64,000 nucleotides of DNA, taken from Clostridia bacterium (GTDB lineage: Bacteria; Bacillota; Clostridia; Christensenellales; Aristaeellaceae). Both the position numbers and the translations under genes were made by a program. Position 1 is the stretch's first letter; the number at the start of each line of letters is the position of its first letter. Positions 44,388-44,764 of this stretch are shown in pieces. Under the pieces are notes generated by a model. That model searched no databases and was not told where the DNA came from. It was given only the letters and a program-made list of their open reading frames with translations. The stretch spans positions 1 to 64,000 of the forward strand of contig JAFXVR010000023.1 in assembly GCA_017534885.1 (NCBI GenBank). The letters are read 5' to 3'.

Positions 44388-44428
44388 GATAAAACACCCG
44401 GCCTGTCCTGCGTGAGGTCAGCCGGGTG
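44388..44428 (-). terminator. terminator of the tRNA-Leu gene
   Basis: Minus strand CACCCGGC and GCCGGGTG pair over an 18-nt loop, followed by TTTTATC, 4 bp beyond the tRNA 3' end. Confidence 0.85.
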
Positions 44429-44432
44429 AGCA

Positions 44433-44727
44433 TGCCGATGGCGGGACTCGAACCCGCACGCCCGCGAGGGCAAGGGATTTTCCTGCCGCACCATGTTGCC
44501 ATGGCCGTGATCCGTTGCGGTCTGGACTATGTCTTCGCCATGCCGGAGCCCGCAGGCCCCGGTACAGGCGGCCGGTGTATAGTCTCTACACATTCCAACT
44601 CTGTTGGTTTAGCTCGGCGTTGCCCCGGTGGGGTTTTCGCCGAATTAGCCGGCATTCACGCGGGCGCTTTCGCCGCCCGGTGCTCTTCTGTCAAAGTCCC
44701 CAGTGTCTGCCATTCCACCACATCGGC
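44433..44727 (-). tRNA. tRNA-Leu (UAA), interrupted by a group I intron
   Basis: Minus strand. Acceptor GCCGATG (44727-44721) pairs with CATCGGC (44440-44434), discriminator A at 44433, no encoded CCA. D-stem GTG/CAC, GAATGGCAGA loop; anticodon stem GGGGA (44701-44697) pairs with TCCCT (44477-44473); long class II variable arm (GCCC TCGC GGGC); T-arm GCGGG TTCGAGT CCCGC. Removing 44693-44482 gives the loop CUUAAAA, that is anticodon UAA, and an 83-nt tRNA. The gene thus has exons 44727-44694 and 44481-44433. Its promoter places the transcript start within about 3 nt of the mature 5' end. Confidence 0.93.
44482..44693 (-). ncRNA. group I self-splicing intron in tRNA-Leu(UAA)
   Basis: The 212-nt insertion splits the anticodon between U34 and A35. 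The 5' exon ends in U and the intron ends in G, as group I introns do. The core signature is present: P7 strands in GTAGAGACTATACAC (around 44576-44590) and AAGACATAGTCC (44535-44524). A GGGGCAACGCCGAGC segment matches the P4-P6 region, a GGGCG/CGCCC hairpin fits P2, and GAGC near the 5' end could be the guide sequence pairing CUU with a terminal U-G wobble. No homing endonuclease frame. Same insertion site as the cyanobacterial/plastid IC3 intron. Confidence 0.9.
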
Positions 44728-44735
44728 ACAAGGTT

Positions 44736-44764
44736 ATTGTATGTCATTCGCGGCCTCCTGTCAA
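44736..44764 (-). promoter_or_regulatory. promoter of the tRNA-Leu gene
   Basis: Minus strand TTGACA (44764-44759), 17-nt spacer, TACAAT (44741-44736): a consensus-strength promoter whose expected start is at about 44729-44730. Confidence 0.9.

Follow-up and report, generated by a model that had tools for sequence, protein, structure and literature searches.

A group I intron in the tRNA-Leu(UAA) gene of a clostridial bacterium and its relatives in other bacteria and phages

A tRNA-Leu(UAA) gene in the window, the 64,000-nt stretch of a contig from a gut-type Clostridia genome analysed here, is interrupted in its anticodon loop by a group I intron, an observation confirmed by comparison with related introns. 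The reading we prefer, with a probability of roughly 0.8, is that this intron descends from a mobile lineage of tRNA-Leu(UAA) introns that phages have as well, is itself free of an endonuclease and is removed by self-splicing. This reading builds on the anatomy of the gene, the conserved structure of the intron, its sporadic distribution and its endonuclease-bearing relatives in phages.

The class II tRNA gene occupies 295 nt on the minus strand (44727-44433). The 5′ exon (44694..44727, minus strand) contains the 5′ strand of the acceptor stem, the D arm, the 5′ strand of the anticodon stem and the loop as far as U34, and is followed by the 212-nt intron (44482..44693, minus strand), inserted between U34 and A35. 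The 3′ exon (44433..44481, minus strand) extends from A35 through the 3′ strand of the anticodon stem, the variable arm, the T arm and the 3′ strand of the acceptor stem. The coordinates and anatomy proposed in the first-pass annotation, a tRNA-Leu(UAA) split by 212 nt between U34 and A35, are borne out, as is its expectation of a normal class II tRNA after removal of the insert: when the exons are joined in silico, ARAGORN types the product as tRNA-Leu(taa) with all arms present and every stem paired. The 5′ exon is 94% identical to an intact tRNA-Leu(UAA) gene of a congener, and the 3′ exon is 98% identical to that of congener G009. The intron terminates in ...GCAGG, and the introns of the family likewise terminate in G. 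Upstream, a sigma-70-like promoter, TTGACA-17-TACAAT (44736..44764, minus strand), ends 8 nt before the tRNA; in a consensus scan it has 11 of 12 consensus bases, with 0.2 such matches expected by chance. Downstream, a possible terminator recognised by eye, CACCCGGC / GCCGGGTG with an 18-nt loop and then TTTTAT (44389..44428, minus strand), is absent from the output of a terminator scan that permits only loops of 3-8.

As had been anticipated, ordinary annotation would miss this gene. ARAGORN detects no tRNA here when given the intact window and, with introns allowed, mistypes the split gene as Phe(GAA), so that a routine pipeline would overlook the tRNA-Leu(UAA). The Rfam group I model RF00028 (Intron_gpI), proposed earlier as a check, aligns end to end with the region (44703-44512, minus strand, model positions 1-253; 36.9 bits, E 7.5e-8), below its gathering score of 50 bits, a curated cut-off that serves as a search threshold and is not a biochemical trait. 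A default Rfam scan is consequently silent on this intron, and most of the same-site introns of the family also score below 50 bits with RF00028. Our own covariance model scores the intron core at 123.4 bits, the window intron being among the sequences from which the model was built. A tRNA that is reported missing from a genome may merely be split.

The assignment of the group I core was evaluated in an alignment of 16 introns of the same family, in which the textbook helices were assigned by hand. Across P1 to P9, 93.2% of 812 cells are paired and 28 of 51 pairs have compensatory changes, with both sides altered. The covariation score is 0.339 as compared with a shuffle mean of 0.130, none of 500 shuffles scores as high, and the signal is lost when partner columns are shifted by one to three. 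The predicted fold of the window RNA also beats all 200 dinucleotide shuffles (z -3.1). The 3′ strand of P1, GAG (44683..44685, minus strand), pairs with CUU of the exon (44696-44694), placing a U-G pair at the splice site; this first P1 base pair is U-G in 16/16 aligned introns, in agreement with the earlier description of a 5′ exon ending in U and an insert ending in G. P2 forms a hairpin (44657..44682, minus strand) in which nine of ten pairs have changes on both sides. P3 (44653-44649 with 44575-44571) encloses P4, P5 and P6a (44571..44653, minus strand) and is supported by covariation, with compensatory changes at all five pairs and 100% pairing in 26 introns from several phyla. The guanosine-binding helix, P7 (GACTAT, 44584-44579, with ATAGTC, 44530-44525; 44525..44584, minus strand), with P8 between its strands, is 100% paired and invariant in sequence in the 16 introns, and an invariant helix has no covariation support of its own. 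P3, P4, P5 and P8 are backed by compensatory changes in relatives, and covariation extends to P9 and P9b (44486..44520, minus strand), the latter capped by a GCAA tetraloop, with compensatory pairs numbering 2/4 and 4/5, respectively; P6a fits the alignment poorly, as its loop varies in length. Both P7 strands noted on first inspection are present, and the P3 to P8 region, then named as the part of the fold that would have to be found, has the RF00028 alignment and compensatory pairs in its favour, P7 being paired but invariant.

This architecture predicts that the window intron is removed by guanosine-dependent self-splicing. With transcription of the split gene driven by its own promoter, the intron RNA would fold and bind guanosine in P7; the U-G pair of P1 would mark the cut, directly after U34, and ligation of U34 to A35 would then yield a normal tRNA. 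A genome search recovered 32 intact tRNAs, among which those for leucine have the anticodons UAG, CAA and GAG only, and no second UAA tRNA gene was found in the assembly, which is 93% complete and in 71 contigs. The split gene is therefore likely, although short of proven, to be the only tRNA-Leu(UAA) of the genome; the earlier statement that it is the sole isoacceptor stands insofar as no other was found among the 32 intact tRNAs, and is tempered by the incompleteness of the assembly. UUA accounts for 4 of 401 leucine codons in the nine window ORFs judged to be genes, so that demand for the UAA tRNA is low but not nil. The source genome has a GC content of 63%.

Within the clostridial family the intron is sporadic. 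The Rfam group I model has matches in 16 of 308 family genomes, and R1, an intron model built in this analysis, in 19 of 308, spread over 11 of 50 genera. Every family intron that was typed interrupts tRNA-Leu(UAA) and does so at the identical site. In the window genus the intron occurs in no other species, and six congeners have an intact tRNA-Leu(UAA). The genes that flank the split gene in the window were not found beside tRNA-Leu in relatives.

Other group I introns are present in these bacteria. The genome that contains the window has a second one (L074:1501-1738; contig C5:1926-2163) that at 51.9 bits is above the Rfam cut-off; it lies in what appears to be a prophage, where it interrupts the gene for a phage major head protein (phrog_10, E 4.8e-34). 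Elsewhere in the order or class, clostridial genomes have related introns in tRNA-Asn(GUU) (L229, L231, L232), tRNA-Lys(CUU) (L230), tRNA-Thr(UGU) (L237, L238) and tRNA-Tyr(GUA) (L239, L240). In every case the insertion follows a U of the anticodon loop, and together these introns form their own clade; we know of no report of group I introns in these four tRNA hosts. A further clostridial locus, L241, has a group I core (32.7 bits), and no split tRNA was found there.

The same intron type is present at the same site well outside this family. A pattern scan of 84,980 genomes gave at least 119 matches; those listed are mainly from Pseudomonadota, Acidobacteriota and Bacteroidota, with a few from Planctomycetota and Clostridia. 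When exons were joined in silico, 121 of 123 bacterial introns, from the matches listed plus the family set (with a few loci in both sources), typed as Leu(taa). In IMG/VR, whose contigs are virus predictions, at least 114 contigs among the matches listed have a split Leu(taa) gene (114 of 120 cases typed); at least 93 of these viral introns are short and at least 21 are 600 nt or more, which leaves room for an ORF. Both scan patterns require an AAAATC 3′ exon and so favour tRNA-Leu(UAA). All of these totals are lower bounds. In the complete genome of the cultured jumbo phage Atu_ph07 of Agrobacterium, a tRNA-Leu(UAA) gene missing from the annotation is split by a 278-nt intron (L372:939-1216), and a 735-kb phage assembly has a tRNA-Leu(UAA) with a 205-nt intron. 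Intron-like matches in Kolpuevirus, cr111_1, AD45-P1 and pYD6-A were excluded, as no tRNA-Leu(UAA) could be reconstructed; in two of these four phages, the match adjoins a DNA helicase gene. When the window gene itself was compared by blastn, there was no match to plasmids, and the sole match to phages was a tRNA-Leu(UAA) without an intron, located on a faecal contig of 6.6 kb whose phage status is unverified. This intact tRNA (L371:3043-3124, MT837901.1, an unverified human faecal phage scaffold) is about 94% identical to the window exons; the scaffold could be host DNA and was set aside as evidence for a vector.

Some of these relatives carry what could be the means of their spread. The longer introns, at about 690-780 nt, have in their 5′ part an ORF for a protein of about 150-170 aa, and the proteins scanned have Pfam matches to HNH endonucleases, some of them below the curated cut-off. 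The intron proteins of Bacteroidales L119 and viral L365 are 72% identical, L256, L310 and L363 are further examples of long introns with ORFs, and in L123 a 61-aa remnant of the protein persists. The window intron was described earlier as having no endonuclease gene, and indeed its 212 nt contain no ORF and hence encode no homing endonuclease. None of the clostridial tRNA-Leu introns seen has an endonuclease ORF, and a search of the family for the HNH protein brought no copy with an endonuclease to light, its three matches all being weak (E about 1e-4).

The intron tree, based on about 200 columns and with modest support, groups the window intron with nine other clostridial introns (97/91). 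All 19 clostridial introns fall, together with a single viral one, in a group with 97/91 support, which is nested in a 100/99 clade that in total has 18 viral members and 3 from Bacteroidales besides the clostridial ones. Monophyly of the clostridial introns is not rejected (p-AU 0.328). Congeneric species fall into different subclades (L076 and L077 in genus g54; L087 and L224 in g7), a pattern suggestive of exchange between family members. The topology favours a lineage common to gut-type bacteria and phages, with transfer possible in either direction. A tRNA-Leu(UAA) in a Bacteroidales MAG from horse faeces (L192) has Bacteroidales-like, CCA-encoding exons, yet its intron is placed in the tree among those of Clostridia and gut phages; it is a candidate for inter-phylum transfer, with contamination possible.

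The first-pass annotation left the intron as either ancient or transferred. The patchy occurrence in the family, the intact genes of congeners and the position of the intron among those of phages and gut Bacteroidales speak for the second of these: a mobile past is more likely than straightforward inheritance of an ancient intron, as judged from a tree that contains no cyanobacterial sequence. Homing into this one site of tRNA-Leu(UAA), driven in part by copies with an HNH endonuclease, is the probable way in which the lineage passed between bacteria and phages. The window copy, having presumably lost the endonuclease, could then have been kept because it is neutral, in a tRNA for a codon that is rare in a 63% GC genome. 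The same splicing would operate had an ancestor of the family acquired the intron a single time, with vertical inheritance, many losses and no recent mobility thereafter, a history that we regard as somewhat unlikely. It would accommodate the near-single clade of clostridial introns (97/91, with one viral row inside) and the AU result, the lack of an endonuclease in every clostridial copy and exons that are native to the family, but it would require many losses to leave the intron in only 19 of 308 genomes, and it sits poorly with the separation of congeners into different subclades and with the viral intron inside the clostridial set.

Decay offers another account, in which the intron is degenerate, the tRNA a pseudogene, and UUA is read by another tRNA or by one whose gene is missing from the assembly. 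The 93% completeness of the 71-contig assembly, the rarity of UUA and the modest Rfam score would be in keeping with this, but the core helices are intact, the exons are complementary in all stems and 94-98% identical to the intact gene of a congener, a near-consensus promoter is present and UUA codons are in use, all of which makes decay quite improbable. A chance resemblance, with an unrelated insertion that happens to look like a group I intron, might be suspected from an RF00028 match below the gathering score. It is refuted by the comparative structure: the match has an E of 7.5e-8 in the region, the compensatory pairing is conserved, and the same type of insert is present at the same nucleotide in more than 200 other genes.

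An endonuclease-free descendant of a mobile lineage, our preferred reading of the window intron, invites a broader proposal, offered tentatively and at somewhat less than even odds, that the tRNA-Leu(UAA) anticodon loop is a common homing site, that phage tRNA-Leu(UAA) genes with HNH introns are a mobile reservoir that has repeatedly seeded chromosomal tRNA-Leu(UAA) genes across bacterial phyla, and that in Clostridia this traffic has ended in copies that have no endonuclease. Split tRNA-Leu(UAA) genes in phages make the spread of this intron a testable question, and we consider the phage reservoir a more novel lead than the window intron itself.

The classic group I intron of cyanobacteria and plastids resides in tRNA-Leu(UAA) between U34 and A35, and the window intron is, as first proposed, at that very position. 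A gammaproteobacterial tRNA-Leu intron was reportedly described by Vepritskiy in 2002. Small anticodon-loop introns that similarly have no endonuclease are found in Azoarcus tRNA-Ile and Agrobacterium tRNA-Arg; these are in other tRNAs and at other sites, and we take the core motifs of the window intron to resemble theirs. By analogy with the Azoarcus and Anabaena introns, it presumably belongs to subgroup IC3. Both PMC4033280 and PMC4476775 deal with the cyanobacterial tRNA-Leu(UAA) intron; the former, a review of tRNA diversity, lists group I introns in bacterial tRNAs for cyanobacteria and alpha- and beta-proteobacteria only. The suggestion that tRNA-Leu(UAA) introns were undescribed outside cyanobacteria does not hold: a tRNA-Leu-TAA interrupted by a group I intron is reported for Thiomargarita (PMC4853749) and for Beggiatoa (MacGregor et al. 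2013, as cited in PMC4853749), and the scans place such introns in over 100 viral contigs and in numerous members of the Pseudomonadota, Acidobacteriota, Bacteroidota and Planctomycetota. As a feature of Clostridia the intron does appear to be new, no earlier report of a tRNA-Leu(UAA) intron in Clostridia, or of an intron in a phage tRNA gene, having been found in a partial coverage of the open-access literature with few subscription papers. A classic tRNA intron is hereby extended to a clostridial family. A 2014 review recorded phage group I introns in protein-coding genes only, despite the many phage tRNA genes (PMC3984707); here, a split tRNA-Leu(UAA), in some cases with an endonuclease, is present in a cultured phage and in no fewer than 114 contigs predicted to be viral. 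With the cyanobacterial and plastid intron, the window intron has in common the gene, the U34/A35 site and a group I core, but its host is clostridial and its presence sporadic. The Beggiatoa and Thiomargarita genes, likened here by their published description, also have a putative group I intron in tRNA-Leu-TAA that annotation missed, but in gammaproteobacterial hosts. The HNH-bearing phage and Bacteroidales introns (L119, the L123 remnant, L254, L256, L310, L365) differ from the window copy in that full copies are about 690-780 nt and contain the HNH ORF that it lacks, yet they occupy the same site and belong to the same 100/99 clade.
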